In this document: positions 11,618 through 40,599 of the stretch, one piece after another
Layout: each line of letters starts with the position of its first letter
How positions within the stretch are numbered: the first letter of the stretch is position 1
Assembly (NCBI GenBank): GCA_035610835.1
Contig: CM069446.1
Span: 821,001-885,000 of the forward strand
Direction of reading: 5' to 3'
DNA from: Ophiura sarsii
Lineage: Eukaryota > Echinodermata > Ophiuroidea > Amphilepidida > Ophiuridae
DNA length: 64,000 nucleotides
Program-made: the position numbers and the translations under genes
Notes under the pieces: generated by a model
Database searches by the model: none
Told to the model about the DNA's origin: nothing
The model's input: only the letters and a program-made list of their open reading frames with translations

Positions 11618-11776
11618 TGAGGTATGAGGTAATTCGAAACTAGTATTCTAGGATTTAAGTACATCTTCCACTACAGCCTTCCACTACAAGCTTTCAATTA
11701 GGACTTTTTAAGAGCGACGAAGACACATACACGCTGAAAGTTGATTGAGATCGCACGGGCTACGGGGATACAACTA

Positions 11777-11963
11777 TACTCTATTTGGCCATCTCGAGAC
11801 AGTGACGTAACCGCGTATTCTACTAATTGCATCACATAACGCGCGCGCATACTCCCGGCGCTGGCGTACAAACACGAGCGTTGAAAGGCGGAAGATACAC
11901 ACGCGTGCGTAAAAGCTGCGCCTGTTCAGTTACGTCACTGTCTCGAGATGGCCAAATAGAGTA
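11777..11963. mobile_element. MITE with about 35-bp TIRs, empty site present at 35.4 kb
   Basis: The ends read TACTCTATTTGGCCATCTCG and the complement, continuing through GAGACAGTGACGTAAC. TA lies at 11,775-11,776 and 11,964-11,965. P3 near 35,408 reads CAACTAGATGG, exactly the sequence expected without the insertion (CAAC-TA-GATGG). The interior is CpG-rich. A diverged copy in the same orientation lies at 14,823-15,009. No coding capacity. Confidence 0.9.
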
Positions 11964-12010
11964 TAGATGGTAAGTAAGCCTAAATGGTGAGAATATTAAT
12001 GTAAGATATA

Positions 12011-12405
12011 CCGTAAAATATCAGCATATGGCACATTATTATCTCTGATATACAGGACGCCATCTCGCGATCAAAACTTCTTTTAAAAGTTTATTCTTAA
12101 AGGCACTTCCGAATCTCAAATGTTTGCCCCGGGCAAAAGTCACATGAATCGCTACATACCCGAGATCCGCCTATACATCAAATAAACCCCGATGCAATGT
12201 TGATGCATGTAGCTCGCATTACCGAAAGATTGGCTACAAACAGCAAAATGTACGAACAAAATTCATGTCTAGAAATGTTTCGAAAAGTCATTCTATTCAT
12301 TTGAATAAAACCACAGTTATAATCTGAAACAACATTAAATCATTTATTGGGCGAGAACCCTATGTTAAATACATACAAAAATAGAAATATAAAGCATTTT
12401 TACCG
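12011..12405 (+). repeat. Left terminal inverted repeat of the tRNA-bearing element
   Basis: Pairs with 14,340-14,713. The outer about 165 bp match closely (for example GCTACATACCCGAGATCCGC at 12,151 against its complement at about 14,553). The inner part matches with gaps (GTCATTCTATTCATTT, then GCGAGAACC). Confidence 0.85.
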
Positions 12406-12414
12406 TTACTCAGT

Positions 12415-12486
12415 GCTCCGTAAACGCAATCGGTAGAGCATCAGATTTATAATCTGAAGACCGTGGGTTCGAATCCCACAGAGAAT
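12415..12486 (+). tRNA. tRNA-Ile(UAU)-like gene inside left TIR
   Basis: The anticodon stem TCAGA/TCTGA is perfect and the loop TTTATAA gives anticodon TAT. The T-arm GTGGG-TTCGAAT-CCCAC is perfect with a consensus B box GGTTCGAATCC. The D-loop CAATCGGTA is normal, but the D-stem pairs only 2 of 4 (ACGC against GAGC) and the acceptor 4 of 7. A run of T follows immediately at the 3' end, as for RNA polymerase III termination. It may be a decaying tRNA or a tRNA-like gene kept only for its promoter. It points inward from the left end of the element and lies about 400 bp from it. Confidence 0.6.
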
Positions 12487-13275
12487 TTTTTGTTTTTCCC
12501 GTTACTATTACATTTAGTAAATGTAGAGATTATTTTAATATCGTTCAATCATAATATTATTTTGATCCCAGATACTTTTCATTTTATTTAATAGAATGAT
12601 TTTCTTACAGATTCAATGAGGTTTTAATTTGAATGTACTAATGTACTATCACTTCATGGGTGTATAGGTTTAATACATGCTTAGCGTTGCGTTTATTGAA
12701 TTATTGCAATACCCCGCCCATTGTTACCCCATGATTATTCACGCAATAATCTATCAGGCCAATTGTTATTGAAAGAAGTCAGTCGTCGTTGAATCGATTC
12801 TTATTTCCCATCTGATCTGTTTGAACAGTCAGAAGTCAAGGCATGAAAATACCGTCTATTTTGTTCGCCCCGGCCCGCCAGAAAAGCGAGATTTCAAGAA
12901 AACAAATAGAAATTGGGTCATTTACAACTCGCGATTGTGACGAATTGCATCAATTGTGATCATCTTAGGCTCATTTTGAAGGGGAAGTCCTATTTATTTA
13001 GGACATTATTTCCGATTTAACAATGTTACTTTTTTGGAGTCGATAAAGATGCATTTTCAATGCAATCGTAAACATCGTAATTTTGATGATTTTTAGACGT
13101 CGTAGCAAAAACTTTGTGCACAAGAAATGTTCCTAACGTATTACACTTAATCAAAAATATGTTTATTTGTAATACATTTTTGGACAGGGGTCAGGGCCAC
13201 GACTTTTAATAATCTACAGTAAAAATATACGCCATTTTCCAACACACAGAGACTAAACCGTTTTTCTAACAAAAG

Positions 13276-13356
13276 GTATTCATCAGGATTCGAACCGAGG
13301 AGGGGAGAATCCATTAGATTACTAGTCCATAGTCTTAACTGCTCGGCCATAACTAC
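13276..13356 (-). tRNA. tRNA-Ser-type gene with AGT anticodon
   Basis: On the minus strand the sequence begins GTAGTTATGGCCGAGCAGTT, the standard start and A box of a serine (class II) tRNA. A long variable arm and a consensus B box GGTTCGAATCC follow. The anticodon loop CTAGTAA places AGT at positions 34-36, which would read threonine codons, while serine AGA tRNAs have CTAGAAA there. The acceptor pairs 6 of 7, but the T-stem (CTCGG against CCTGA) is poor. TTTT follows downstream. The tRNA identity is good; function as a charged tRNA is doubtful. Confidence 0.6.
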
Positions 13357-14203
13357 TCATTGACGTGATGAACTAGTGGTAAACTATTAAGTATTCGACG
13401 ACATTTTAGCCAAATTGAACCCAGTTTCTAAATTGTATCATTTAAATGTGAAAACGGTGTCGCTGCAAGCTAGGCTTGGATTCAATGTAAAGAGCAACAC
13501 ATCGATGATAATAAAAGGTTATTAATTTAAAGCTTTTAATGAGACAGGGGTTAGGGCCACGGAAAATAGACCTTATTTTGTTTAGTAACGACAAAAACAT
13601 GACTTAAACATATCAACATAATGGATTAATATTTTATTGCTCCCCTTAGTAAAAATCCCCCTAGTCACATGGCGTTGAACCACATTTAAATGCCTTGATG
13701 TTGGCATTGTATAAGGCTGACATTTTGGCATTATGAATTGCACAAGATCGACATCCTCTTTTCAAGGGAAAACAAAATTGCGTCGTATACAATAGACTCA
13801 CTCAACGTTGGCATCTGACTGGGTCTATTCAACGAAGCTACAAACATGACAAACAGATAATATGTTGGTACATGTACATGCACATGACCGTACAATCATG
13901 TAGGCCTAAACATGGGAAATCAGAATATCGATTCAATGACGAAAACGATTGACTCTTTTCATAATGGCACAATTGGCCTTTTCCAGATTATTTGGGTGAC
14001 AATGGCTATAGGGTCTCAATAATTCAATTTACGCAACGCTGACCATGAACAAGTAAAAGTTGAACTGCATTCAAATTATTGAATTTAGACAATCATTCAA
14101 ATTAAAAGTATCTTGTCCGTGGATTCACAAATATTATGGGCAACGATAAACAAACCCAACATAAAATTACTAAATTTAATATGATACTAACGAAGACTAA
14201 AAA

Positions 14204-14277
14204 GCATTCTGGGTGGGATTCGAACCACCGGCCTTTCGATCATTAACCCAATGCTCTACCGATTGAGCCAACAACGC
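14204..14277 (-). tRNA. tRNA-Ile(AAU)-like gene inside right TIR
   Basis: This is the best cloverleaf of the three. The acceptor GCGTTGT pairs 6 of 7 with AGAATGC, one pair being G-U. The D-stem GCTC/GAGC is perfect. The anticodon stem TTGGG/TCGAA has one mismatch, and the loop TTAATGA gives anticodon AAT (isoleucine). The T-stem GGTGG/CCACC is perfect if the T-loop has one extra base. The A box TGGCTCAATCGG and B box GGTTCGAATCC are near consensus, and TTTTT follows directly. It mirrors the left tRNA in position and direction but has a different anticodon. Confidence 0.72.
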
Positions 14278-14339
14278 ACTGTACTGTTGTTACAACATAA
14301 ATAGATTCAAATATCGTTTGTGAACACGATTACTATCCC

Positions 14340-14713
14340 ATAAATTGGAAGTTTATAATGCTTTTAAAATTTATAGTTTTGTATGTTTTTAACAAACGGT
14401 TCTCGCTTAAAAATTGAATTGATGCTGCTTCAGATTGTAACTCTGGTTTAATTGAAATGAATAGAATGACTGTTTCTAGACACGGATTTCGTTCACATTT
14501 GATGTTTGTAGCCACTCTTCAGTATTGCATCATGGGTTTTATGATACCTATACGCGGATCTCGGGTATGTAGCGAGTCATGTGACTTTTGCGCGGGGCAA
14601 ACATTTGAGATTCGGAAGTGACTTTAAGAATAAACTTTTAAAAGACGTTTTGATCGCGAGATGGCGCCCTGTATATCAGAGATAATAACGTGCCATATGC
14701 TGATATTTTACGG
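14340..14713 (-). repeat. Right terminal inverted repeat of the tRNA-bearing element
   Basis: Complement of 12,011-12,405. The outer about 165 bp (14,548-14,713) are closely matched; the inner part is gapped. It ends in ATTTTACGG and is flanked by TATA. Confidence 0.85.
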
Positions 14714-14822
14714 TATATGAAATAGGCCTAATTATTGTATTTACTCATAACTATATTTTTACTCATTTCATGAACTCACTCCCGCGGCTATACTTATTAA
14801 AACCAAATTATCTCCTGTCATT

Positions 14823-15009
14823 ATAGTCTATTTGGACGTCACGAGACAGTGACGTAACTGCGTATTTTGATTATTGAAGCACATAACGCTCGCGCCTAAT
14901 CGAGGCGCTGGTGTAACACACGAGCGTTGAAAGACAAGATACTTACCTGTGCATAAAAGCTGCGCCTGAGCAGTTACGTCACTGTCCAGAGGAAGCCAAA
15001 TACATTATA
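14823..15009. mobile_element. Second copy of the 11.8-kb MITE
   Basis: Related along its length to 11,777-11,963: GAGACAGTGACGTAACTGCG at the left, CAGTTACGTCACTGTC at the right, and the shared internal CACGAGCGTTGAAAG and AAAAGCTGCGCCTG. It is more diverged and its outer TIR bases are damaged on the right. It has the same orientation as the first copy, so the two sit as direct repeats about 50 and 110 bp outside the tRNA-bearing element. Confidence 0.82.
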
Positions 15010-16379
15010 GCGCCCTTTTGGGGTTTATACCAAAGCATTTCATTATCACCCTGCCTCAATCCCATGGTCTATTCTCATAAGAACCATGTTGCTTTATTAA
15101 CCCCTAAACCCGAACTTATGTATACATCATCGCTTCATTAACCACTAAGCCTACTCCTAGGCTTACTTCATGGGACCCTTTCGTGGCTTATACCACATTA
15201 ATTCATACCCACTATACCTCAAAACCACATTGCTTTATTAACCTTATCCCATGGCCTATACCTCAAATCAAACCATCTGACCATGGGACTTCTACACGGG
15301 ATCGAATTTACTAACTAGCCAGAGTCTGTTTGGGAACCCTGTAATTCATTTTGCCCGTCTATGTGCGTGCGTATATTGCCACATCAGCTCGCCCATTCGC
15401 AAACACGCACGCTATGCGTTACCACAGTTTTACGCGGTATTACGCGCAACGCACAACGCATAAAAAAGGTTGTTGAAGTGATTCGACTTTGATCCATGGA
15501 TTCAGGATTAATATGATGAGACATCATTTGCGTTGACTTTTTCAATGATGAAATAAGCTTACAAAAAAAGGTTCAAAAACTTATTCGTACGGTAGATCTG
15601 AGACGAAATATTCGTCCAGGGTATGAAGTCATATTTCATATAATATTATATCCGATCGGCAAAATTGATGTTCCCTGCTTCTGAATTCTTTACAGGATCG
15701 GGAATGAAGAAACTTCTGCTGTTTGTTTATTTATTTTTAGTAATTGTTTGCAAATCAAAAACTATGTTAATTTGTGGCTCCGAACATGGATAATAGTTGC
15801 AGAACTGTGATTGGTCTATCTCATAATCGTTCTTTATAAAAGCTTCTCCGCTATTGGTCAATCCGGAGAAAAAACAATGACGTAGTGGGGAACCCCCTAG
15901 ATTGCTTCGTTATTCAATGGGGTGGTGTGTATTTACTTCAGGAGGAAATTACACAAAAATACGAACTCCAAAGTCAAAATATAAACCTTTAGAATAACTT
16001 AATATTTACAATTTGGATGCTAATCAACATTAAGTGACAGATATGAATAAGATTGGTGACTTTGTACCGGGCGTGCCACCCCCTCGGGGCAATCCCTTGG
16101 TACCAAAACACAGTCAGCGATTTCAAACAAGAACCTTACAATAGTCCGTACGCAGTCACCAACCTTAAATTAATCACCTTCTGTATTATATGTAACATTG
16201 TATGACACTACCATGCATCTTGTTTCTGAGGAGTGAAGGTCTTTTCTCAGGTCTCCACGACACAGTACTGTAGAACATTATGTAAAATAATATCTTTAAT
16301 TTGTTTAATATAGCTCCCTTATGGTTGAGCACTCTTCCGTTGGATGGTTTTACCTTCGTCATGATTATATGCATACATA
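15010..16379. other. Intergenic DNA, mostly P1 tail, no gene seen
   Basis: The stretch 15,010-15,290 is a simple-looking run rich in CATTAACC and CATGG-type words and is shared with 35,560-35,870. The stretch 15,367-15,465 (ACACGCACGCTATGCGTTAC, then TTTTACGCGGTATTACGCGC) is shared with 25,640-25,705 and partly with 35,868-35,910. A short hairpin TCTCCG-CTATTGGTCAATC-CGGAGA lies at about 15,845. No coding signal. Confidence 0.5.
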
Positions 16380-19300
16380 GGTGTTAATGGTTAGATGTTC
16401 AATAAGTTTTTAGTTTATTTTCACCACAGATAGCTTAATTTAAGGACGATCTTCACTCTTTTGTAACTCTAATGTGATAACCCGCCAGTACACTGACAGT
16501 GCTCGTTGTTAAATAACTATATCATAACATAACAAATCAGTTTCATCCCAAACTATGACTTATTTTTCTCCTACGTCTTAGCATAGAGACACTGACAATT
16601 CGTCTATCACCCGCATCTGCAGTCTAGCAATTACTAGGTTACATCATAGGAGAAATGGTATTCATTAGTTGAAAGTATTTTTTGTATCGTATTTACCTTA
16701 GCAAGAACGAACACATATCTAACATAATGAGAATAACACAAATTCCCAATTGAAACGTACTGCACGTTTCAATTTGTTTGCGTTTTTGTTCTCGTTTTCG
16801 TGTTTGTTTTCATTCCCAAATATCAAATTGTTCGTACTCTTGTAAAGAGATGTCATCAGACTTACCAAATTATTAATAATATCCATCGAGACGAATACTT
16901 GCCTGGATAATGTTAATGGAAACAAGAGTGGAATTTTATTTGAAATCATCTTATTACGCTACAGTGATATATAAATGATATAAATACAATAATTCAATTG
17001 TTTCTTACCAACACTTATTCTATAAAGCTACTTCAATTTCATCTTCAACCTTTTAAGAAGCCTCCATATATTTAGTTTTATTTACCTTTTAGTTTGATGA
17101 CTCATCTGAGTTTTCCCCAAGAGTTATTTTATTGAAGTACGGAGAACCAATATACCACAGACAAATTGTGTAGATCCATAACAATTGCCTCGACCGTTAC
17201 AGATCTTTTAAAGTCTTTGATATTTAATTATTACTGTCTTCATCCGTTTCAATGTGCTCATCTGGTTCATCTTCCTGAAATAGTGCGTCGAAATTTGTCC
17301 GATGTTTTAATGACAACTCTTTTAACGGCAGTGGACATGTCTATTGCCTTTTATATCTTTTCCTCGATGTGTAATGAAAAATGTATGACAATACCTGTTT
17401 TCTGTTTTCTACAATCACTACTATCATGACAAGCACTACGGGCTACACTATTTACGACATGTCAAAGCCTGAACCACATTTACGCCTTCAACACTCAATA
17501 CCCGTATGTCGAGAGCTAACAACATTATTGATGTACACATACGCGGGGACTTCAGCAAATACATTACTAATCGAATTTCACGAACGCTTGTTGGTTCAAC
17601 ACCAACTCTGTGCTATGTTATGTACTGCATATGCATGCTTTGTGGCTACTGATATTGGGATACTACTTTCTTTTCTTATGTCCTGCCAGGCTAATAACAA
17701 ATTGCTCATAATTTACTGGGAGTGGCTCCTTTTATAATATTTTTTCATAGAGCCAAAAAAATCGATTTGATGATATATGCTCACATAAGTTCACTTGTAT
17801 GAAATGGTTAAAACAAAAGTTTTTAATCCTTAACGTTATCATTTTTGATGTTTTATTCTAACCAAAATCAGTTCAGTTCTAATATAATCTACTATTTTCC
17901 AAGTGGCTAAAACAGGCAATAGTCTACAATAGTACAATTCTCTTTTTTGCATCAAATTGTGAAGAACATTTTAATGCACATCTGTTCAATTTTCTACCCA
18001 CTTCGATTGGGACATCCGAAACCTTTCATGCTAAGTACCCGAATGGGAGTGAAATGCAAATACTATAAACATTCACAAACCTTTTAGAAAACACGTTACA
18101 CCGACAGCAAAGGATCGTGTTAACATTTTAAATAATTCATCCAGCCATCGTCTATGATAACTTGAAATGGCCTGTTATGTATGATTGAAACCCTCTTTGC
18201 AACCAAGGCAGCATTACAAATTTGATCCACTGTTAACTCACGAAAACTAAAGAAACATCTCACATGTAATAATATACAGATGAAGTGTATGAAAAATAAC
18301 ATTAACGAAATTGTAATAACGGAATAAAGAACATGAGTTAGGTGTCATTAAGGGCTCTTGCCCAAACACAAGTAGAGAAAAGCTCGAGGAAAGAGCGAGG
18401 AAATCACAGAAGGTACAAATTTAGGGAACTTTGAAACATAAAGAAAATCATAAGAAAAAAGAAGAAAAATATCTTCTGAATAATATTCTAAAAAGGCTAC
18501 ATTAAAAGAACTGGTAACTCATATTACACCCACTTTACGGAGTCTTCACTGGTTACCTGTTCACGAACGGATCAGATATAAAACTTTACTTCTGACATGG
18601 AAAGGTTTAGACAATATGGCAAGATTCTACTTTCAAGAATAGATCAAATCAATGGTCTGTAAATCTTCACATTTACAACATTGTGTGCTTATAATGTCAT
18701 GATTGATATCAAACAAATGTTCAAAAGTCTCAGCTTTATCTATAAATCACTTTTTGTGATGTGGTACTATCGGGCTTATCTAAATGATAATGGGTTCTGA
18801 AAGAGTGCCCTATTTACCAAAACAATCTCATAAATCTGATGTTTTATGTTTTGAATGCCTAACTGTAACAATTAGTCAATAAAAATGGACTTGTCATTCA
18901 ACTGTTTTTCCGTATCAAATCTTATCATATGATTTAGTTACTATGTGCAGGCAGACCATATACCAGCTAGAGGTAGATTTCCGATTCTTCTGATCAAAAG
19001 CTCCTTATTATATAATGCCAAATATTATAATATGATTTACTTACTTTGTGCAGACATCCTATATCCCAGCTAGGAGTTTATTTTGATCCTTCTGAGGCCT
19101 TCTTAATCGGACTCTAAACTAGGATTGAGTCCGTATCATAGTTGATAGTTTTTATCTTGTCGATACAAAATGTGTGATAACATTTCCGATAAGTCAACAG
19201 AATATCTTGATGCAAGTAGAAACCGAGTCTTAGATAAAAATCATCTTCCAGTACGTATAATAGATAAAGTTATATCCTGGACTGATGCTTTTATACTGTG

Positions 19301-20545
19301 GCGATGGGCTGCTAGACACCGCTAGAGGGCCAGCTATATTAGAAGCGATTATCCAATGCCAAAATAGGGGAGAGAGAGGCAGAGAGAGATAGAGAGGTGG
19401 TATTGTTTTCCCGTCAAGCTCAACTCAACAGTGGTTCGCTCAATCGACAGGAGTAGCATCGCAATTCAAATCACGTAATGCTATTACTACATGGATTCAG
19501 GCTGCTCTCCCGTCTACGCGATCTCCTCATGTGTCCAATATGTATAGCTCATACCGGGGATTACCCACAAGGCATGGCTATGTTTGCAGGAATATAACGC
19601 TAGAAAGTGATATAGGTGACAGACTGATAAAATCGTTTGACCGACATCGCTGAGGTGATGCAGAGAATAGTATGCTTGCATGGAAGATAAGTTGCCTAAC
19701 GGGGTGTGGTGGTGTCAGGTTATATTTGATGCGAGTCTGCTTGGTTTGAAGTGCGTTCAATTCAGCCTGAACAATTTTTCAGCAGGCACAGGATAGTATT
19801 AGAAGGAAGTGTGCCAATAATCCACATTTCATGTCAGAATGTAGGTCTAAATTCCTATATATGAAGAGTTTATTTGCAAAAGGTGCTAAGTCCACAAAAG
19901 GTTCTATGGACATTTTGGATTGGTTGATTTGGTTAATATTGCATATGGCTTAAAGGAGAACAGTGCTGTTCATTAAACCAAGCATTATATGGTAGGAAAA
20001 TAATTATCTTATGTATAAATATTGACCAGTTTAATCGAGCACAGAACTATAATAGTCAACAAAACGAATATAAGCTGCACACCCCAACCTGTGATTATTT
20101 GAAATTCGCGCCGGTAATATGTGTCGGAAGTAAAACTGGGATAGCCATACCCTACATTGTGACGCCATCGTTACTAAAACCGCCTCATCAGCAACAGGTC
20201 GCTACACATAATCACGCAGGAATTCAATGCATAAATCGAAAATATCAATACATGAAACAGAGATGTGGAAATCTCGTAATTGTTTCGTCATAGCTTCGAT
20301 CAATATGCCGATGTCCATACAGGTGATTTTTTCTTTCTAAAGCAGATTTTGTCTTAACACTTAAACCTAGGGATGTGGTCTGTATAATAATAATGCTACA
20401 TATCTGAACGCTAAAGTTCCATGGCAAGGATTACCTTTAAGGTATGCCCATAAGAAATTAAAATAACGAGTTTGTTTGAAATCCTGAACCTTTGTTATTT
20501 TGTTATAGTCTCTTTTGTTTCCAAAATACTATGAACTTTGCACGT
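16380..20545 (+). repeat. Copy Q1 of the duplicated unit (right half)
   Basis: Collinear with Q2 (27,008-33,975) and Q3 (36,755-42,300) from GGTTAGATGTTCAATA at 16,390 to ATACTATGAACTTTGCACG at about 20,527. Q1 is the copy with fewest insertions and serves as the reference 'empty' allele for elements in Q2 and Q3. Small open frames (for example around 17,166-17,737 and 19,578-19,760) are not kept in all copies, and I see no protein family in them. The segment 19,565-19,860 is especially well conserved among copies. Confidence 0.8.
18525..18625 (+). pseudogene. Short remnant of an L2-type LINE 3' end
   Basis: The plus strand translates as TLRSLHWLPVHERIRYK followed by TLLLTWKGLDNMA, the conserved C-terminal region of CR1/L2-type reverse transcriptase proteins. 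It then stops abruptly at AATATGGCA and joins AGATTCTACTTTCAAG. In Q3 the same LINE continues for about 1.7 kb before that junction sequence reappears at 41,128. The fragment here is therefore the product of a deletion in Q1. Confidence 0.8.
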
Positions 20546-21991
20546 TTTGCCACTAAATCTCATTTCCTTTTTTACGCCTTTTGGAATATTTTCGAAAATG
20601 TGACCTAAAATGGCAATTTTCCGTAAATGTTGGGATTTTCAGAAAGATTGACCGTCATTTGAATTTTCGCTTACGTAAGACTAAATGTACAACAATTACT
20701 GTAATTTGGTATTTCAAATGAAAGGTCAAAGTGTAATAAACCTTTAAAGAAAATCTGATTTTATTTTATTTCTCGTTTTTGGGCCATTTTAATACACAAA
20801 TTTTCCGGAAATTGCCGACAATATCCGAAAACTTCAAATTGCAATATCTCCACAACGGAATGAGATACGAACTTGAAATAAAAAGGTTAAGTTGTATTTA
20901 CAAGTGCAACACGTTTCTGCAAAAATCTCTCAATTATGATATCTGATGAACTTTTGCATAATAAGCTCTTCATATATTAGATGGTCTTGTCTCCCAACTA
21001 ATTTTTACTGCATATTATTATGATTACCTGTTATTTAATTGATTTCTAAGCGCTTTTAGCCTCCGGGAAATGGCACATCACAAATACCTGTTTTTTATAT
21101 TAGTATGTTTCTATGTATATGTTTATGTAGGATGTAGGGGGGTGTACTTGCACACCCGCCAATCCGAGGACATTTTTCTATACCAGCCGGAAATGTGAGG
21201 GTGTAGGGGTGTATGTAATTATGTTAATAAGTCACTGAATGGTGTTACATATATCTATCAAAACGTTCCAGATAAACACTTAACACTTACCACGCGGCAG
21301 GCAGCTGCAGACGACATTCCAAAATTTCACAAAATGTTTAAAAAATGTCAACATTATTGAATTTCTTTACCATATTTGGAAACACCATGAGAAATGCATT
21401 GAAACAAGTACAACCATGCCTAGTATTGGTTCAGTAATCCTTGAGATAGACTTTGAAAATTGGGAAAGGTTTCTGAAAAATCAGTAAAACTAATAGCCGC
21501 GTGGAGAGTGTTAAGATCATCCTAGGATCTTCTTCGTATTGAGTATCCTATGACAAGAGTCAAAACTGATGACAGGAGTTTTACTGTTTGTGCATCTAGA
21601 TTATGGAATGAATATAGATGAAGAAAATCCAACAGCTTTCTATGCGGGGATCAAATGATACCTTAACCGCTAGGACACGACGGCTCTACAGAAAGAACGG
21701 GTCATAATCCAGTGTATCTAGGCGAGATATCTTGTTTCAATGACTATCCAAATAATGGTGGTTCATAACATCTGCATATATGCGGCTATTATGATAATTT
21801 ATTATTCTTATGGTCTTTAGTATCTTTGTAAGCGTTCTGAGTCTCTGGGGAATGGTGCATACTTATAACCCGCAAATCCGAGGACAAAAGTATAGAAGTT
21901 ACAGTAAATCCGAGGACAAAAAAAATGTGAGGACCTTTTTTGAAGTCCTCTCTTTTTTCCTGCATAAAAACGTATAGAAGTTGGGTCCTTA

Positions 21992-26930: not shown

Positions 26931-27599
26931 AGATCGGCTGCTGCCGCCGCTGTTCTGGCTAGCTGGGCATGTGCCCGCGGAATTGAAGATTCCAACAAAA
27001 CAAATGCATACATAGGGTTAATGGTTAGATGTTCAATAGGTGTTTAGTTTATTTTCACCACAGATAGCTTAATTTAAGGACGATCTTCACTCTTTTCTAA
27101 CTCTCTTGTGATAACCCGCGAGTACACTGACAGTGCTCGTTGTTAAATAACTATATCATAATATAACAAATCAGTTTCATCCCAAACTATGACTTATTTT
27201 TCTCCTCCGTCTTAGCATAGAGACACTGACAATTCGTCTATCACCCGCATCTGCAGTCTAGCAATTACTAGGTTCAAGGGCGTCCCCAGACCCTTTTCAT
27301 TGGGGGGGGGGGGTGTAAAGGTCACCAATTGCCGACAAAGCCATAGTTGTGCCGACACTAAGTTTTTTTGGCTCGCTTCGCTCGCCAGAATTCATACACG
27401 CATATTTTAGAATGGACTGTATGGTCAGAGGCGTCAATCCGTTTTCAGACGGGGGGCGGGGGCACAAGTTTGATAATGATCATTGAAATGTTAAAATAAA
27501 GCAGCGCATAGCGCTGATTGAATAGTTCTGGGGAAGCGCGCAAACATTGTGATTTTTAAAGGTACAGTATGACGTTTAAATGTCCTCCACATAACATTT

Positions 27600-28060
27600 A
27601 GAATATTTGTTGTGGTTTGAGGGCCATTTTAATGTTTAAACCTGCTGAAAATATGCGCGTTCAGCGCGCAAAATTTTTCAGTTTTTGAACTCAAATATTC
27701 ATGGAAAACTGTCCTGAAGCTTTCTTGTTAAGCTTAAATAATGAAACATTGAAACTAATACGCGCGAAGCGCGCAAAAATTGGCATTTCTAACACTTAAA
27801 TGGTCAAGTATGATATTGCATAGTTACATACATATCAAGTCCAAATCCAAATCGTATGGTTTGAGGGCCATTATAATGTTAAAGTCTGTAGAAAATTATG
27901 CGCGCAGAGCGCGCTCAATTTTTCAGTTTTTGAACTAAAATGGTCATTGAAAACTAGTTGAAGTTGTCTAATACTATAAATTAAGCTTAAATAATGAAAC
28001 ATTGAAACTAATACGCGCAAAGCGCGCAAAATTTTGCATTTGTAACACTTAAAGGGTCCA
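27600..28060. repeat. Two 255-bp tandem units with GCGC palindromes in the hAT
   Basis: Each unit holds GAGGGCCATT(T/A)TAATGTT, a palindrome of the type GCGCGTTCAGCGCGC or GCGCGCAGAGCGCGC, TTTTTCAGTTTTTGAACT, AAGCTTAAATAATGAAAC and a second palindrome CGCGCGAAGCGCGC or CGCGCAAAGCGCGC. CpG-rich palindromes stand out in otherwise AT-rich DNA. They could be transposase or host-factor subterminal sites, but that is inference. Confidence 0.8.
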
Positions 28061-28510
28061 GTAGCCTATAACGTTTTTAACGTCCCACATAATATTTGCA
28101 GTTGGCCTACATCATAAGTATAGGCGAATTATTTAGTATCTCGTAACCTATGTGCCAACATGATTGGCCTTTGGCGACATTATTGACTTGGGTTTGCATT
28201 GACAACGACAATGATATAGGCCTAGTTAGTATATAAAATTAAAGAGCAATACAGGTCCCACACATTGCCCGTTAGACCTAGCCTATACTATTCCGACACA
28301 ATTTTTTGCTAGGTGTCTTGACAATAAGCAAAACACTACTTTGGCCTATAGGCTGTTCATGTGCGCCGACATAAAATCTCATAAATGGGCTCGTTCACAC
28401 AGTGCCTACAAATTTATATGCCTACATTGCCTTTGTTCATTTTTGATTTGTGTTAACATAACATATGCCGACACAACATTATCATTTGCGCATACGATAT
28501 CTGTTATAGG

Positions 28511-28704
28511 GTTTTCTCCCCTTTTTTCCCCTTTTCCTTTCTTTCTTTCCTCTTTCCCTTTTCCTTTCTTCTTTCTTTCCTCTTTCCTTTCTTCTTTCTT
28601 TCCTCTTTCCTTCTTTCTTTCTCCCCTTCTTTCTTTTTTCTTTCCCTTTTCCTTTCTCTTCCCTTTCTTTCTTTCTCCCTTTTCTTCCTCCTTCCTTTTT
28701 TTTT
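28511..28704. repeat. Polypyrimidine tract, about 190 bp
   Basis: Nearly pure C/T on the plus strand (CCCCTTTTCC, TTTCTTTCCTC and similar), lying inside the hAT element and followed by a long G-run. The Lys/Glu/Arg-rich open frames on the minus strand are translations of this tract. Long homopurine-homopyrimidine DNA can form triplexes; no function is implied here. Confidence 0.92.
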
Positions 28705-30315
28705 GCCCACAGCCCCATTATTTTGCCGACAGATTTGATGAATGGGGGGGGGGGGGGGGGGGGGGGGGTGTGACACCCCCCACACCCCCCCTCTGGGGAC
28801 GCCCTTGACTAGGTTACATCATAGGAGAAATGGTATTCATTAGCTGAAAGTAATTTTTGTATCGGTTTTACCTTAGCAAGAACGAACACATTTCTAACAT
28901 AATGAGAATAACAAAAATTATAAATTGAAACCTACTGCACGTTTCAATTTGTTTGCGTTTTTGCTCTCGTTTTCGTGTTTGTTTTCATTCCCAAATATCA
29001 AATTGTTCGTACTCTTGTAAAGAGATGTCATTAGACTTACCAAATTATTAATAATATCCATCGAGACGAATACTTGCCTGGATAATGTTAATGGAAACAA
29101 GAGTGGAATTTTATTTGAAATCATCATATGACGCTACAGTGATATTTAAATGATATAAAGACAATAATTCAATTGTTTCTTATCAACACTTATTCTATAA
29201 AGCTACTTTGTAATGACTTCAATTTCTTCTTCAACCTTTTAAAAAGCCTCCATATATTTAGTTTGATTTATCTTTAATCATCTGGGTTTTCCCCAAGAGT
29301 TATTTTATTGTAGTACGGAGAACCAATACCACAGACAAATTGTGTAGATCCATAACAACTGCCTCGACCGTGATAGTGCGTCAAAATTTGTCCGATGTTT
29401 TAATGACATCTCTGTTAACGGCAGTGGACACGTCTATTGCTATTTATATCTTTTCCTCGATGTTTAATGAAAAAATGTATGACAATACCTGTCTTCTGTT
29501 TTCTACAATCACCACTATCATGACTAGCACTACGGGCTACACTATTTACGACATGTCAAAGCCTGAACCACAGTTGCCTTTCAACACTCAATACCCGTGA
29601 TATGTCGAGAGCTATTACTACATTATTGATGTACGCGGGGCTTCAGCAAAGACATTTATAATCGAATTTCATGAACGCTTGTTGGTTCAACACCAACTCT
29701 GTGTTATACTATGTATGCTTTGTGGCTACTGATATTGGGATACTGCTTTCTTTTCTTATGTCCTGCCAGGCTAATAACAAACTTGCTCATAATTTGCTGG
29801 GAGTGGCTCCTTTTACAATATTTTTTCATAGAGCCAAGAAATCGATTTGATGATATATGCTCACATAAGTTCACTTGTATGAAATGGTTAAAAAAAACTC
29901 TTACTTAACTCTTAACGTCATCATTTGGATTATGTTTGCTTTTAACCAAAATCAGTTCAGTTCTAATATAATCTACTATTTTCCAAGGGACTAAAGCAGG
30001 CAATAGTCTACAATATTACAATTCTCTTCTTTTTGAATGAAATTGTGAAGAACATTTTAATGCACATCTGTCCAATTTATACCCACTTCGATCGGGACAT
30101 CCGAAACCTTTCTATAATAAGTACCCAAATGGGAGTGAAATGCAAATACTATAAACATTCACAAACCTTTTCAGAAAACACGCTACACCGACAGCGAAGG
30201 AGCGCGTTAACAATTTAAATAATTCGTCCAGCCATCGTCTATGATAACTTGATATGGCCTGTTGTGTATAATTGAAACTCTCTTTGCTACCAATGCAGCA
30301 TTACAAATTTGATGC

Positions 30316-30625
30316 ATTGGTGCCCCCACCCCTTGGAATAACCCCGTCGGTAAACCTGAGCCTCTGTCGGTAGATTTGCAATTTTGACCATGCGATTTTT
30401 TTTCTGCCGGTTTTGTGGACAACCTCACCTCTATCCCCCTCCCCCCCCCCCCCCCACACTTATCAAGATTTCGGCTGCTGACGGGGGGAAATAGTGCAAT
30501 TTGTACGATTTGGAGTCTGCAAAAAATGTTGTCGGTATATCATGCCTTACAACTATGGTCGTGCTCCCCCCCCCCCCCCCCCCCCCCCCACTCCCCAGTT
30601 TCCAAAAGCTGGGTAAGCCACTGAA
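30316..30625. mobile_element. hAT-like non-autonomous remnant with C-runs, present only in Q2
   Basis: Q1 (18,215-18,255) and Q3 (38,640-38,680) read straight through, whereas Q2 has about 310 extra bases. The right end CTGGGTAAGCCACTG is, in complement, CAGTGGCTTACCCAG, a hAT-like terminus. The left end does not match, so the element is probably truncated or rearranged. The interior shares TGCGATTTTTTTT and GACCTCACC/CAACCTCACC followed by C-runs with the hAT at 34.5 kb, suggesting one family. Confidence 0.6.
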
Positions 30626-31810
30626 TTCTCACATGTAATAATATACAGATGTAGTGCATGAAAAATAACATTAACGGAATTGAAATTACATTAAAAGACA
30701 ATGAAACTGAATAAAGAACATGAGTTAGGTGTCATTAAGGGCTCTTGTCCAAACACAAGTAGAGGAAAGCGCGAGGAAAGAGTGGGGAAAACGCGAAGGA
30801 TCGATGATTAACACCACACTGAATGTGTACGTAAGTAATCACAGCAGGTACACATGTAGGGAACTTTGAAAAAGTAAAGAAAATCATAAGAAAATTCACA
30901 AATGATCCTAAATGTCCTCAAATGGGTAGAATTAAGACTTAGCTTTGCTGTGGTCTCATTATAACAATTGTATATAGTTGATTTGGTATATTAGATGGCT
31001 TTTTTCTGTAGTGGTGTGGTATCCGAGTTTAGCTACCTTAAAATGGAATGGGTAGGTATAGAGGTATTGTAACCGATACAAGGCCTACGGTATTCGATGC
31101 GTTTCAAATTTTAGTAGGATTATCATGATCGAGTCTTGGAGCGCTTACTTCTTAACAATGGAAAACTAATACCCCTCTTCCCCGTTGGGGTGTGGGGAAG
31201 GGGAAATTGTTTTTTTAAGATGTCCTCTTCAGCTCTTAACAAATATTACGTCATTTGTTTTTTTCCAATATCGTAGTGAAGATTTATCAACTCCATGTCT
31301 AAATTAATTTTACTTTTCGATATTCGACTACTTGTTATCTCTACTGAATAATATTCTTAAAATGCTACATTAAAGGAATTGGTAACTGATGAAACGACAC
31401 CGGTAAAATTGATAGAAAAACTATTCATAAGTTCTAACAACATTGTAGGACGAAATATCAATTTACGTGAGTAAAACCTTCTTTTTTTGACACAAACTTT
31501 CATTTAATTTTCATTCAAACTGCTAGCTAAGAGTTGTTATAAAATATACGTGATTCTATTCTAACGGGTCACGATTAAGATTTCTCCCTGATATGATGGG
31601 TCTCTTAATCATATTAATTGGATCAAATATAAATGTCATGGTGATGGAAAAAACCCACATATTTCAAAATGTAACAAAAAAAGCATCGGTGTTTGCTATG
31701 GTCTATGGTCTGAAGCATAATATGGTAGAGTAATTTCAGATTCCGGAAAATGAACTGCTGGTATCACTACTTTTAATTAAAAATGATGTCATGATTGATA
31801 TCAAACAAAT

Positions 31811-31887
31811 CGTCGCTGTTCTGACATACCGGCACATCACAACAGAATTTAAGTAAAGTGATGTGCCGGTATGTCAGAACAGCGACG
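31811..31887. mobile_element. 77-bp perfect-hairpin mini-element with AAAT TSD
   Basis: Arms of about 30 bp, beginning CGTCGCTGTTCTGACATACC, are perfectly complementary around a 17-base loop. AAAT flanks both sides. Q1 at about 18,710 has the unoccupied site CAAACAAATGTTCAAAAG, so the insertion happened after Q1 and Q2 separated. The perfect arms also indicate youth. It is too short to code. Confidence 0.93.
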
Positions 31888-32096
31888 AAATGTTCAAAAG
31901 TCTCAGCTTTATCTATAAATCACTTTTTGTGATGTGGTACTATCGGGCTTATCTAAATGATAATGGGTTCTGAAAGAGTGCCCTATTTACCAAAACAATC
32001 CCATAAATCTAATGTTTTATGTTTTGAATGCCTAACTGTAACAATTAGTCAATAACAATGGGCTTGTCATTCAACTGTTTTTCCTTATCAAATCTT

Positions 32097-32315
32097 CACA
32101 CAGAAAACACTATGTAAAAAATTATGTAAATATAGAACTCCATAATTATTATGTAAGAGTTTACATAAAACATGCAATATATACCCAAGCTTGTGTAAAT
32201 TCCTATGCAAAAGCTTTACACAACTGATTAAATAGTATTATGGAGTTCTATTTTTACACAGATTGTGTAATTTTTACATAATTTGTGTATTTTTTTACAT
32301 AGTGTTTTCTGTGTT
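32097..32315. mobile_element. 219-bp MITE (CACAGAAAACACTATGTAAA ends), Q2 only
   Basis: The termini CACAGAAAACACTATGTAAA and the complement are near-perfect for over 20 bp. Inside are many ATGTAA/TTACAT words. Q1 reads AAATCTTATCATATG where Q2 has AAATCTT, the element, then TTATCATATG. The target duplication is at most 2-3 T-rich bases and cannot be fixed. It is similar in flavour to the TTGTGTAA-rich element at 8.9-10.7 kb but not clearly the same. Confidence 0.85.
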
Positions 32316-34064
32316 TTATCATATGATTTACTTACTATGTGCAGGCAGACCATATACCAGCTAGAGGTAGATTTCCGATTCTTCTGATCAAAAGCTCCTT
32401 ATTATATAATGCCAAATATTATAATATGATTTACTTACTTTGTGCAGACATCCTATATCCCAGCTAGGAGTAGATTTTGATCCTTCTGAGACCTTCTTAA
32501 TCGGACTCTAAAATAGGATTGAGTACGTATCATAGTTGATAGTTTTTATCTTGGCGATACAAAATTTGTGATAACATTTCCGATAAGTCAACAGAATATA
32601 TTGATACAAGTAGAAACCGAGTCTTAGATAAAAATCATCTTCCAGTACGTATAATAGATAAAGTTATATCCTGGACTGATGCTTTTATACTGTGGCGATG
32701 GGCTGCTAGACACCGCTAGAGGGCCAGCTATATTAGAAGCGATCATCCAATGCCAAAATAGGGGAGAGAGAGACAGAGAAAGATAGAGAGGTGGTATTGT
32801 TTTCCCGTCAAGCTCAACTCAACAGTGGTTCGCTCAATCGACAGGAGTAGCATCGCAATTCAAATCACGTAATGCTATCACTACTTGGATTCAGGCTGCT
32901 CTCTCGTCTACGCGATCTCCGCATGTGTCCAATATTTATAGCTCATACGGGAATTACCCACAAGGCATGGCTATGTTTGCAGGAATATAACGCTAGAAAG
33001 TGATATAGGTGACAGACTGATAAAATCGTTTGACCGACATCGCTGAGGTGATGCAGAGAATAGTATGCTTGCATGGAAGATAAGTTGCCTAACGGGGTGT
33101 GGTGGTGTCAGGTTATATTTGATGCGAGTCTGCTTGGTTTGAAGTGCGTTCAATTCAGCCTGAACAATTTTTCAGCAGGCACAGGATAGTATTAGAAGGA
33201 AGTGTGCCAATAATCCACATTTCATGTCAGAATGTAGGTCTAAATTCCTATATATGAAGAGTTTATTTGCAAAAGGTGCTACAAAAGGTCCACAAAAGGT
33301 TCTATGGACATTTTGGATTGGATGATTTGGTTAATATTGCATATGGCTTAAAGGACAACAGTGCTATTTATGAAACCAAGCATTATATGGTAGGAAAATA
33401 ATTATCTTATGTATAAATATTGACCAGTTTAATTGAGCACAGAACTATTATAGTCAACAAAACGAATATAAACTGCACATCCCCAACCTGTGATTATTTG
33501 AAATTCGCGCCCGGTAATATGTTTCGGAAGTAAAACTGGGATAGCCATACCCTATATTGTGACGCCATCGTTACTAAAACCGCCTCATCAGCAACAGGTC
33601 GCTACACATAATCACGCAGGAATTCAATGCATAAATCGAAAATATCAATACATGAAACAGAGATGTGGAAATCTCGTAATTGTTTCGTCATAGCTTCGAT
33701 CAATATTGCGATGTCCATACAGGTGATTTTTTTCTTTCTAAAGCAGATTTTGTCTTAACGCGGCACTTCTAAAAACTTAAACCTACGGATGTGGTCTGTA
33801 CAATAATAATGCTACATATCTGAACGCTAAAGTTCCATGGCAAGGATTTCCTTTAAGGTATGCCCATAAGAAACTAAAATAACGAGTTTGTTTGAAATCC
33901 TGAACCTTTGTTATTTTGTTATAGTCTCTTTTGTTTCCAAAATACTATGGACTTAGCACGTTTTGCCACTAAACAGATTGATCCCCTTTCTAGAAACACC
34001 CTTTGTAACCACTATGGCTCTAAGTTCAGCATTCCATTTTAAAAGGTTTGTCAATTGACACAGA

Positions 34065-34976: not shown

Positions 34977-36129
34977 GTAGCGCAGATTTCGAGCTCATTT
35001 TCTCCTCGTGTTCCGTCTTTAAATTGCTTGAGAACATGGGCATGTCACAATCTGAATGTGCCAAAATCATCACTACTTTGTGCTCAAAAGTCAATAGAGC
35101 ATGACTCTACACTGTATTTGTCAATGTAACACTTCAGTGATCAGACGACACAGATGTTCTTTTGAGCACGATATAGTGGCAATTTTGGCACATTCAGATT
35201 GTGTTCTCCCCATGCTCTCAATCAAGTTACTGGGCACTGAAACAAGTGATTGCTATAAAGGAGGTATGAGGTAATTCGAAACTAGTATTCTGGGATACAT
35301 CTACCACTACAGTCTTCCACTACAAGCTTTCAATTAGGACTTTTTAAGAGCGACGAAGTCACATACATGCTGAAAGTTGATTGAGATCGCACGGGCTACG
35401 GGGATACAACTAGATGGTCAGTAAGCCTAAATGGTCAGAATATTAATGATATATTATATAAAATAGGTCTAAACATTGTATTTACTCATAAATATATTCT
35501 TACAAATTGCATGAAATCATTCCCGCGGCTATACTTATTAGAAACCCTTTAGTATACACCACATAAGACCTACTTCGCCTCACTACCCAATAAGAAACCA
35601 CATTACTTCATTACCCCGGTTGATACTACATTACATATCCCTAATGTGGTTTATACCATAGCATTTCATTATCACACTACCCCAATCCCATGGTATATTC
35701 TCATAAGAACCATGTTGCCTTATTAACCCCTAACCCGACCTTATACAACATCGCTTCATTAACCACTAAGCCTACTTACTCCATGGCACCCTTTCGTGGC
35801 TAATACCACATTAATTCATTAACCCACTATACCCCAAAACCACATTGTTTTATTAACCCCATCACGGTTACCACGGTTTTACCCGGTATTACGCGCAACG
35901 CACAATATCTTACTTGTCGGGTACCATCGGTTTCAGGAGTTATTTTCAATGAGTACATGGGTACATGACGTTATAGTATGGGTAAATGACGTTATAGTAT
36001 GGGTTAGTGCCATTCAATTAATAGAATCATGATGACTGATGATGGGATTTACCGAGATAAATCAATAATTGATTGCACATTTAACTTGACAAACTTGAGA
36101 ACTTGACAACTCTAGAATTGTTTAACATA

Positions 36130-36750: not shown

Positions 36751-37426
36751 TATGTTGTATCCATTAGCACACTTGATAAGATCCATCGACACGAATAGTT
36801 GCCTGGATAATGTTATAATGGAAACAAGAGTAGTATTTTATTTGATATTATCTTATGACGCTACAGTGATAATTCAATTGTATCTTATCAACACTTATTC
36901 TATAAAGCTACATTGTAATGACTGTAATTTCTTCAAATTTTAAAAAGCCTCCATATATTTAGTTTTATTTACCTTTTGGATTGATGACTGAAGTACGGAT
37001 GACCAATATACCAAAGACAAATTGTGTAGATCCATAACAGTTGCCTCGACCGTTACACAAAATATTTTAATTTCTTTGATATTTAATCATTACTCTCTTC
37101 ATCCGTTTCAATGTTCTCATCTGGTTCATCTTCCTGAAATAGTGCGTCAAAATGTGTCCGATGTTTAATGACAACTCTTTTAATGGCAGTGGACACGTGT
37201 ATTATCTTTTATATCTTTTCCTCGATGTGTAATGAAAAATGTATGACAATACCTGTTTTCTGTTTTCTACAATCACTATTATCATGACTAGCACTACGGG
37301 CTACACTATTTACGACATGTCAAAGCCTGAACCACAGTTGCCTTTCAACACTCAATACCCGTGATATGTCGAGAGCAAACAACATTATTGATGTACGCGG
37401 GGGCTTCAGCAAAGACATTAGTACGA

Positions 37427-37972
37427 ATGGAACATTTTATTTGTACGCCTACCCATGTAATAGTCCCACTGTGTCAAACTTAATTAATGAGGGCTCACCA
37501 AGTTGTTATGATTTCAAGACCAACAGACTGGACTGGTACACTCCATAAAAACAGGCTGGTATTAAGTTACAGACCAACCATTGTGTCCTTAAATAAATAC
37601 ACACTTAACTGGAAAATGTCATATTTAACCCTTCTTTCAGTTGGTCCATAGTTGAACCTTGACAAGAAATCATTATTGACTACTTATTTCTTAAGTGTGT
37701 ATATTTACAGGATTTTTGGCCAGACATATCCATCTGTCATCACTGCATTGCCCTTGTTTGGGTTGATCTGGCTAAGTTTGTAATTACTCTATCGCTTAAT
37801 TTCTTTGGTATAAATTGTATGTGGATTTTTTGTTTTTGAGTAGGGTATCTAACATGTTTAAGTAGTGTCTGTTTGACATCAACTATGGGGTACATGAGTT
37901 GAATATGTCCACTTTTTCCACTGTAAACAAGGTGTCTCTAGAGCTGAAATCATAACCTTGAGCGTACAAATA
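37427..37972. mobile_element. Unidentified 545-bp insertion in Q3
   Basis: Q1 and Q2 run GACATT(A/T)...TAATCGAATTTCA without a break, whereas Q3 has about 545 extra bases. Near the ends TTTGTACGC (about 37,439) faces GCGTACAAA (37,964-37,972), a short inverted repeat. A further weak inverted pair is TTATGATTTCAAGAC / GAAATCATAACC. No protein or known family is recognised; a short-TIR DNA transposon is likely. Confidence 0.6.
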
Positions 37973-38984
37973 ATCGAATTTCACGAACGCTTGTTGGTTA
38001 ACGCTTGTTGGTTAAACACCAACTCTGTGTTATACTATGTACTGCCTATGCATGCTTTGTGGCTACTGATATTGGGATACTACTTTCTTTTCTTATGTCC
38101 TGCCTGGCTAATAACAAAATGGCTCATAATTTGCTGGGAATGGCTCCTTTTACAATATTTTTCATAGAGCCAAGAAATCGATTTGATGATATATGCTCAC
38201 ATAAGTTCACTTGTATGAAATGGTTAAAAACTCTTACTTAACTCTTAACGTTATCATTTTGATTATGTTTGATTCTAACCAAAATCAGTTCAGTTCTAAT
38301 ATAATCTACTACTTTCAAAGTGACTAAAGCAGGCAATAGTCTACAATAGTACAATTCTCTTCTTTTTGCATGAAATTGTGAAGAACATTTTAATGCACAT
38401 CTGTCCAATTTTCTACCCACTTCGATCGGGACATCCGAAACCTTTCATGCTAAGTACCCAAATGGGAGTGAAATGCAAATACTATAAACATTTACAAACC
38501 TTTTTAGAAAACACGTTACACCGACAGCGAAGGAGCGTGTTAACATTTTGAATAATTCATCCAGCCATCGTATAATATGATAACTTGAAATAGCCTGTTG
38601 TGTATGATTGAACGCCTCTTTGCAACTAATGCAGCATTACAAATTTGATCCACTGTTAACTCACGAAAACTAAAGAAACATCTCACATGTAATAATATAC
38701 AGATGTAGTGTATGAAAATAACATTAACGGAATTGTAATAACATTAAAAGACGTTGAAACTGAATAAAGAACATGAGTTAGGTGTCATTAAGGGCAAACA
38801 CAAGTATAGAAAAGTTCGAGGAAAGAGCGAGGAAAGCGCGAAGGATCGGTGATTACTGAATGTATACGTAAGTACCCATTCAGTGAGGTGTTAATCACAG
38901 AAGGTACAAATTTAGGGAACTTTGAAAAATAAAGAAAATCAAAAGAAAAAAAGAAAAATATCTTCTGAATAATACACCTACTTT

Positions 38985-39528
38985 ACGGAGTCTTCATTGG
39001 TTACCTGTTCATGAACGGATCAAATATAACATGAAAAGGTTTAGACAATATGGCACCTTCTTATATAACCGACCTTCTCTCTCCATATACTCTTGATCCT
39101 ACTCGCAGCCTGAGGTCGTCAGAAAAGTGCTTACTGTTAGTTCCGCGAACAACATCCTCTTTCGGAGATCGTGCTTTTCTACCGTTGCTCCTAAACTTTG
39201 TACCTCTTTACCCATCGATGTTCGTCAGTCAGATTCTCTCCATCGGTTTAAATCAGGACTCAAAACATTCTTATTCAATGCTGCTTATGACGGCTAATTT
39301 CAAATGTTTTGAGTTTTACATTTTGTTTGCCATGCTATTTGTTATTGTTTTTCATATTCAATTTGTAATATTGTTTTTGGTCATATTTTTAGCACATAAC
39401 AATTTTTTGGTTGGTTTTTGTTCAACGCAAGATTGTTACAGATCATGTTTTTTCTGTGATTTCTACTTTACTGTATTGTTTTTCTTGTTTGTTCATTGCG
39501 CCTTTGATTTTGTTAGGCCTTTTAATTT
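38985..39528 (+). pseudogene. Older L2-type LINE 3' end, interrupted by a younger one
   Basis: Translates in broken frames as LRSLHWLPVHERIKY, then MAPSYITDLLSP, RSLRSSEKCLLLVPRTTSSF and GDRAF, and so on. This is the same C-terminal region as at 18.5 kb and in the same position of the unit. Frameshifts and deletions are visible at about 39,030 and 39,175. Its 3' UTR runs to about 39,528 and resumes near 40,600, ending TAGATAAATGGCGCATTTTAAATG at 40,673-40,696 with TTATT repeats. Confidence 0.85.
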
Positions 39529-40490
39529 AAATGATCCTAATGATGAAATGTTGGCCCGTCAACGCGCAGAAGCTTGTATTAGAAATTAAGTCGTGGATGT
39601 CTGTAAACAAGCTGAAATTGAATGATGATAAGACAGAGTTTTTAATTATGACCTCCAGATTCAATCAACGTAAAATATGTGATCATCATATCAATATTGA
39701 CATTTCTTCTGTTCTTGCTTCAAAATCTGCTCGGAACTTAGGAATTGTGTTTGATAATAATCTATGTATGGATGTTCAAGTTCGACGGATATGCCAATCA
39801 GTGTATTATCATATACGGATTGTCAATAGTATAAGGAAAATGTTAACATTTGAAACCGCAGCTACTATTGTCCATGCTCTTATAACTTCTAGTATTGACA
39901 ATGGCAATTCTCTTCTTGTTGGCATCACGGATCACTTACTTCACAATACAACTTGCTCAAAATGCAGCTGCTCGCATTCTCACAAAGACAAGGAAATTTG
40001 ATCATATCACTCCAATATTGAAAGATCTCCACTGGCTTCCTGTTCGCGAAAGGATTCATTTTAAACTTCTTCTTTTAACTTGGACAGCTTTGCATGGCAC
40101 TTCACCAACATATATTGCTAATCTTCTTGTTCCATATCATCCAAAACGCACTCTCCGGTCATCTGATAAACTTTTACTTGTTGTTCCATGGACTACTTCT
40201 TCATTTGGAGATCGCGCATTTTCGGTTGCTGCACCGACACTCTGGAACTCACTACCTTATAATTTAAGATGCTGTGATTCACTTGACTCTTTTAAGAACT
40301 TGTTAAAAACAAGATTATTTGACTCAGTTTATAATTGATTTCTTTGTATCACATGTATATGCAAATCATCCTTGTTTATGTATTTTTCATGTTTATTTGT
40401 ATTTTTGTTTTATATGTTTGCGCCTAGGAATAGTTTTACCTAGATTGACGGCGCATTATAAATGCCATTATTATTTTTTTTATTTATTAC
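39529..40490 (+). pseudogene. Younger L2-type LINE nested in the older copy
   Basis: A 5'-truncated element. It carries LEIKSWMSVNKLKLNDDKTEF, NLGIVFDNNLCMDVQVRRIC and IVHALITSSIDNGNSLL. A frameshift at about 39,935 follows, then QNAAARILTKTRKFDHITP, LHWLPVRERIHFKLLLLTW and ends LLKTRLFDSVYN at 40,335. The 3' tail ATATGTTTGCGCCTAGGAAT and GGCGCATTATAAATGCC matches the element at 26.9 kb. It starts just after the catalytic palm, so reverse transcriptase activity is absent. Confidence 0.88.
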
Positions 40491-40599
40491 CCAGTATTAT
40501 GCCGACATCGGAATTCAATGTTACCAGGCTATTCATGTGCGTGGGGTTATTTTTCAATTACTTCCAGTTTATAAGGCAACGTGGATAAATATGCTCTGT

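Follow-up and report, generated by a model that had tools for sequence, protein, structure and literature searches.

A transposon family with tRNA-like genes inside long inverted repeats in Ophiura sarsii

How do tRNA-like genes come to lie inside a DNA transposon, and do they matter to it? These questions are raised by an element at positions 12011-14713 of a 64,000-nucleotide stretch of the genome of the ophiuroid Ophiura sarsii (C6:821,001-885,000; GC content 36.45%; called the window below). The element has long terminal inverted repeats (TIRs), a TA target site and three tRNA-like genes, designated here t1, t2 and t3. It probably belongs to a non-autonomous, TA-target, long-TIR family that is moved in trans and carries the tRNA-derived genes as passengers.

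The window copy (no strand assigned) is complete, as judged from its TIRs, its TA flanks, an empty site and matches in the genome. Its left inverted arm (12011-12815, +), where homology to the right arm ends at about the inner limit, faces a right inverted arm (13905-14713, -) whose inner limit is likewise approximate. TIR identity falls from 96% over the first 100 bp to 93% over 180 bp and 81% over 390 aligned columns, and the symmetry whose failure the first-pass annotation, made from the letters alone, had named as fatal to its reading is upheld over all of these columns. TA dinucleotides stand at the left (12009-12010) and right (14714-14715) flanks, also without strand. Because TA also adjoins all 9 left ends and 17 of the 19 right ends that were displayed from twenty further copies (L009-L028, introduced below), the target is taken to be TA; the other two ends are broken. 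TA is found at all four ends of two more copies, L045 and L046. The flanks of the element align to 35411-35448 and to 35455 onward without an element between them, and this paralogous empty site (35411-35546, +) retains only 35449-35454 unmatched between the two flank matches. An exact duplication at the junction is blurred by AT-rich drift. Since the flanks match an element-less copy of a duplicated block, the insertion postdates the duplication, or the element has left the other copy. The longest stop-to-stop frame entirely within the element is 71 amino acids. Thus the firm boundaries, the TA/TATA-type target, the empty relative (placed at 35.44 kb; the flanks match at 35.45 kb) and the lack of an encoded protein, all proposed in the first-pass annotation, are borne out.

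TIRs and an absence of coding capacity are features that the element has in common with miniature inverted-repeat transposable elements (MITEs). MITEs are usually under about 0.8 kb, but the window copy is 2703 bp long, the youngest copies described below are 2879-2881 bp and one copy (L024) reaches 4.2 kb; the exception is a single copy of 546 bp (L038). The TA target is that of the Tc1/mariner superfamily (IS630). Two short hairpin-like MITE copies, 81% identical, lie on either side of the element (11775-11966 and 14822-15010), and neither is matched at the 35.4-kb paralogous site.

Within the element, t1 (12415-12487, +; anticodon TAT) and t2 (14204-14277, -; anticodon AAT) point inward from mirror positions in the two arms, and t3 (13275-13356, -; anticodon AGT) is a class II, serine-like gene of 82 nucleotides. 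The consensus B box and the T-run that had been described for each are present: GGTTCGAATCC occurs in t1 (12466-12476, +), t3 (13286-13296, -) and t2 (14216-14226, -), and a run of at least four T lies directly behind every gene. These are the only exact occurrences of GGTTCGAATCC in the 64 kb, where shuffled sequences lead one to expect 0.01. Rfam recognizes t1 as a tRNA with 41.6 bits and t2 (match 14212-14270, -) with 29.9 bits, barely over the gathering score of 29. The score of t3 was 17.1 bits (E 0.4) when it was searched alone, under the same cut-off, and t3 was absent from the Rfam matches at E<=1 in a 5-kb search. The B-box count together with the presence of the genes in other copies rules out chance tRNA shapes, so that the three genes first noticed by their shape, t1 and t2 with Rfam matches besides, are real. 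The A boxes were recognized by eye only. ARAGORN at its default setting calls none of the three genes in the window copy, which is therefore regarded as a decayed member of its family; at a relaxed setting, the frame that it draws for t1 of this copy starts two bases upstream. The folding z-scores of the genes taken alone are -2.0, -0.4 and -0.5, two of which are unexceptional. A viral or phage source was considered and rejected, as neither an exact 24-base terminus nor an exact 28-base stretch of t1 was matched in viral contigs. A search for distant matches in phages gave 19 records, with t1 aligned over 44-62 bases in each; 17 are annotated as tRNA genes and two carry no annotation. A direct repeat, GACAGGGGTYAGGGCCACG, flanks t3 at 13183-13201 and 13543-13561, 360 bp apart.

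The genome (1.574 Gb in 748 contigs) was searched with the whole element, which gave 3982 first-look candidates, 40 of them scored, and 171 matches. Searches with the two types of terminus gave 842 and 849 first-look candidates, 40 of which were scored in each case; first-look numbers count candidates, not copies. The termini of the element read TACCGTA, and the two terminal types, A and B, of the family (CCGTAAAATATCAGCATATGGCAC and CCGTATATAACCAGCATTTGGCAC) each stand directly behind TA. Altogether 39 copies were read, namely the window copy and 38 that were fetched (L009-L046): twenty from the whole-element listing (L009-L028), seven with an inverted core from the same listing (L029-L035), nine of the 40 terminus A matches, at places outside the earlier sets (L036-L044), and two places for which both B termini were listed (L045 and L046).

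The cargo is widespread among these copies. Three exact B boxes were found in 20 of the 39, one or two in 15 and none in four; for the fetched copies the numbers are 19, 15 and the four copies L020, L021, L038 and L044. These counts are lower bounds, many fetched copies being truncated or only partly covered. The genome-wide copy search proposed in the first-pass annotation has thus recovered copies, 35 of the 39 with at least one exact B box. Copies lacking tRNAs, which that annotation had held to be damaging to its claim, do exist, but only as a minority: the four without an exact B box include L038, the 546-bp copy, which has no tRNA. By similarity search, t1 is found in 16 of the twenty copies L009-L028, and in L011, L012, L020 and L022 no left-arm stretch around t1 was matched in the fetched DNA. 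It exceeds the Rfam gathering score in 15 of the twenty (40.7-54.5 bits) and in 6 of the 9 copies fetched by terminus A alone. In L040, t1 is seemingly split by about 1 kb, as we read it, and no t1 was found within the 5 kb examined of L044.

Of the 38 copies given to ARAGORN at its default setting (all but L035), 26 yield a call of t1. The calls come from 13 of the 20 copies L009-L028, six of six young copies (see below), 5 of 9 of L036-L044 and both L045 and L046, with none for the window copy. The anticodon is TAT in 23 calls, and GAT, CAT and TTT in one each. t3 is called as Thr(agt) in 8 of the 20 and 2 of the 9; it is uncalled in the six young copies, where its variable arm is longer, and in L045 and L046. 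Automatic tRNA counts for this genome would accordingly be inflated for Ile-TAT and Thr-AGT.

The copies fall into subfamilies. In the B-type copies L015 and L022-L025 the core is longer by 0.8-2.5 kb. In another group the core (element positions ~816-1815) is inverted relative to the arms, as seen directly in L027 and L028; counted by eye, the inversion is present in nine complete loci (L027-L035) and one truncated locus. The edges of this core are marked in the window copy by CAGTCAGA at 12826-12833 (+) and, in inverted orientation, at 13814-13821 (-), both read off the sequence. Six of the inverted-core copies are 99.58-99.90% identical over 2879-2881 bp, have different 15-bp flanks and retain three exact B boxes each. 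Because six near-identical copies at different sites keep all three genes, the family must have jumped recently with its cargo. L035 was excluded from this comparison as its right end fell outside the end pattern; it has three exact B boxes, and Rfam finds its t1 and t2. Of the 14 ends of L029-L035, 13 matched the pattern, which itself contained TA, so that TA at these ends is partly a matter of construction. For comparison, the Amphiura genome paper describes a burst of DNA transposons 10-15 Ma ago at 2% divergence (PMC11310086), and the divergence of the young subfamily here is smaller than the 2% given there. The element therefore belongs to a many-copy family that has carried tRNA-like genes to many places and, in one lineage, has done so very recently. 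This bears out the earlier suggestion that a non-autonomous element of this kind could spread tRNA genes.

The arrangement of t1 and t2 points to a common origin. The inverted arms remain collinear past both genes until about 810 bp from each end, and the arm part behind the tRNAs aligns with a score of 69, against a maximum of 31 for 300 first-order resampled sequences and of 32 for 300 random window stretches. The majority sequences of t1 and t2 are identical at 58 of 74 positions. In the acceptor stem, when whichever of two frames suits t2 better is used, two of three mispairs are common to both genes, a C-A and a G-G at neighbouring positions. Because of this collinearity, the 58 matching positions and the mispairs in common, t1 and t2 are most likely mirror copies of one ancestral gene that was doubled with the arm, and independent capture is disfavoured by the arm homology beyond the genes and by the same mispairs. 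The inward direction and mirror positions reported earlier hold for the outer genes, whose paralogy had not been foreseen there, as do the anticodons TAT and AAT; their description as different needs qualification, since both belong to isoleucine and only the wobble base differs. Compared with human genes, t1 resembles lysine or methionine tRNAs. t3 matches the human serine AGA tRNA at 63 of 82 positions; its anticodon is AGT in 15 of 18 aligned rows, and in L009, L010 and L025 the anticodon loop contains an insertion. One tRNA gene within what later became the inverted arms of an ancestor would have given rise to both outer genes, and t3 may derive from a tRNA gene of serine type in the ancestral core. 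The element would then have spread as several subfamilies, one of them with the inverted core, moved in trans by a transposase encoded elsewhere. The structure, the family of copies, the TA target, the cargo of 35 of the 39 copies and the recent burst are observed; the order of these captures, the neutrality of the cargo and the mobilization in trans are what we infer. Outside the element, a good host-type tRNA-Asn(gtt) (Rfam 57.7 bits) lies at L016:5691-5766 (-), about 356 bp beyond an element end, and a tRNA-Ala(agc) at 1986-2061 of the window (46.8 bits), without an immediate T-run, is possibly the head of a short interspersed nuclear element (SINE).

A source of the transposase was sought among the copies. 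Stop-to-stop frames of at least 100 amino acids were listed in the 38 fetched copies, and ten of them, plus five shorter ones, were scanned against Pfam. The extra core DNA of the long B-type copies was a candidate, but the frames tested in it matched no family above cut-off. The terminus searches for an autonomous partner (40 of 842 and 40 of 849 candidates scored) yielded only further copies without one. The search for a partner transposase suggested in the first-pass annotation was thus run among the listed terminus matches, and no partner with the same ends came out of it. Among the frames scanned, the only transposase remnants are two domains in L017, a Sleeping Beauty-type helix-turn-helix (HTH) domain with 54.2 bits against a cut-off of 43, and a weak Tc3-type HTH whose 22.2 bits fall below its cut-off of 31.5. 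Both lie within a TA-flanked insertion with ends CAGTTAAGCCC, which is also present in L014 and which, in L017, sits inside a further insertion with ends CACCTAGCAC (nested TA-flanked insertions at L014:5247-6945 and L017:1205-3519, the one with CAGTTAAGCCC ends being common to both). Its different ends led us to reject this HTH-bearing insertion as the partner. As far as these domain matches go, the remnants show that Tc1-type remnants exist in the genome, not that they move the tRNA-carrying family. L017 also has a reverse transcriptase fragment, whose position places it in a different inserted stretch.

A cargo of importance to the element would be expected to vary less than the DNA around it. 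Purifying selection on the tRNAs was tested by comparing variability and by comparing older with young copies, and the results were negative or mixed; the tRNAs are read as passengers for this reason. The variability of t1 is 3.8%, against 1.3% outside (17 sequences, up to 14 covering t1), and none of the 271 outside windows exceeds the value of t1. For t2 it is 2.1% against 1.5% (19 sequences), with 71% of 240 windows as low. The pattern was unchanged when CpG sites were omitted, which rules out CpG decay as the cause of the higher variability of t1. The roughly threefold variability of t1 relative to its flanks, which persists outside CpG sites, could reflect transcription-associated mutation or a small-sample effect. 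Compared with the young copy L031, older copies (8, 18 and 14 sequences) are identical to 98.6% in t1, 97.3% in t2 and 93.9% in t3, the last with 8 gap columns besides; among the other windows of the respective arm or core, 36%, 34% and 26% are at least as conserved as t1, t2 and t3. When the two arms of the window copy are compared, 11 of 11 positions of the B box agree, in surroundings that are 67-70% identical. Taken as a whole, these alignments do not demonstrate selection; inheritance accounts for most of the conservation, and the tRNA-like genes are most likely long-carried passenger cargo.

Several observations weigh against this explanation. The variability of t3 is 1.3%, compared with 2.7% in its flanks (18 sequences), and none of 105 outside windows is as low, which could mean constraint. 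Inheritance might not be the whole reason why the young copies have kept exact B boxes and terminators. A single ancestral gene for t1 and t2 is hard to square with the match of t2 to a host asparagine tRNA, which is clear (E 2e-7) and better than that of t1 (E 0.065). Finally, the copies read include neither a transposase nor an autonomous partner with these ends, and it is for this reason that mobilization in trans is inferred.

The strongest alternative is that the RNA polymerase III (Pol III) units are useful to the element itself, their promoters and terminators keeping chromatin open or shielding it from silencing for access by a transposase; the tRNA shape would then matter only for the A and B boxes. 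This could explain why the six youngest copies have three exact B boxes each despite imperfect t1 and t2 acceptor stems in the majority sequence, why t3 is less variable than its flanks and why the outer genes point inward from mirror positions. However, t1 is more variable than its flanks, the tRNAs are unexceptional between older copies and the young one, the tRNA-less L038 exists and a mirror position needs no function, as it follows from the homology of the arms. A benefit of this kind, although a live alternative, is unlikely, and the insulator and open-chromatin roles proposed in the first-pass annotation find no support so far; less likely still is its more specific form, in which binding of TFIIIC and Pol III keeps the element open or insulated for a trans-acting transposase and the tRNA-derived promoters serve as accessibility or boundary devices. 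A natural test of whether Pol III units influence the mobility or silencing of a DNA transposon is offered by near-identical copies that have or lack a given unit.

It is improbable that the tRNA-like parts are heads of tRNA-derived SINEs that were inserted into a TIR element and then carried along. SINE heads are a usual source of A and B boxes, and the exact B boxes agree with the Pol III promoter boxes of such SINEs. Against this origin, the 3' end of every unit is followed at once by a T-run, and t3 keeps a class II variable arm along with the serine match, as expected of a tRNA gene. The element as a whole has TIRs and a TA target, which is not the form of a SINE (no TIR, a LINE-like or poly(A) tail, a duplication of variable length; LINE, long interspersed nuclear element). 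Delivery of working tRNA genes that alter the host pool, for example an Ile(UAU) tRNA and a tRNA of serine type that reads the threonine codons ACU, would fit the ARAGORN calls of t1 (26 of 38, 23 as Ile(tat)) and of t3 as Thr(agt) (10), but it is most improbable given the drift of the t1 anticodon to gat, cat and ttt, the low Rfam scores of t2 and t3 and majority sequences without the intact cloverleaf of a functional cytosolic tRNA gene, whose acceptor stems pair at 4 of 7 positions in t1, 4 of 7 in t2 (better of two frames) and 6 of 7 in t3.

DNA transposons with parts of Pol III repeats are already known. MER6 is a Tc1/mariner MITE of 865 bp with 24-bp TIRs and a V-SINE fragment (PMC6887750). 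It resembles the present family in being non-coding, in its TA target and TIRs, and in carrying DNA of Pol III-repeat origin that was spread by DNA transposition. Its cargo consists of the body and tail of the SINE and lacks the tRNA-related head (PMC6887750), whereas the present family has three tRNA-like genes, a length of 2.7-4.2 kb and homologous arms of ~810 bp. The Pack-TYPE transposons are likewise non-autonomous DNA transposons with captured host DNA, but they are described for coding DNA in plants (PMC8903248), and the cargo of the present family is tRNA genes in an animal.

More general classes share some features with the family. Tc1/mariner-type and other TA-target non-autonomous elements are alike in target, TIRs and lack of coding capacity, with the difference that no transposase with the present ends was found among the copies read. 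Foldback-type elements also have long inverted arms that form much of the element, but the present arms were not seen as tandem subrepeats, and the core is ~1.1 kb and more. tRNA-derived SINEs likewise have Pol III boxes and dispersed copies, whereas the present element transposes as DNA, with TIRs at its ends and TA as its target, and has three units, each with a T-run directly behind it. The tRNA-like genes of this family are thus spread by DNA transposition, not by retroposition, in copies as recent as 99.6-99.9% identity. Searches of open-access literature, which excludes most subscription journals, brought up no TIR transposon with whole tRNA-like genes, MER6 being the nearest case; this is no proof of absence.

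The window contains further repeats. Large blocks (16369-20557, 27004-33973 and 36773-42467) occur in two or three copies with their order preserved, for the most part 80-98% identical. Another long-TIR candidate element lies at 55658-57807, with 197-bp arms of 92% identity and inner inverted repeats, and an inverted repeat at 60335-60784 has arms of ~180 bp that are ~98% identical. An open frame of 1039 codons (49869-52988, -) is, judging from its sequence alone, LINE endonuclease/reverse transcriptase-like. A BTB protein gene occupies one open frame at 58283-59665 (+). Its relatives have BTB and some have BACK domains; three of 12 are assigned to Amphiura filiformis (34-38% identity), and the closest four are 40-47% identical.
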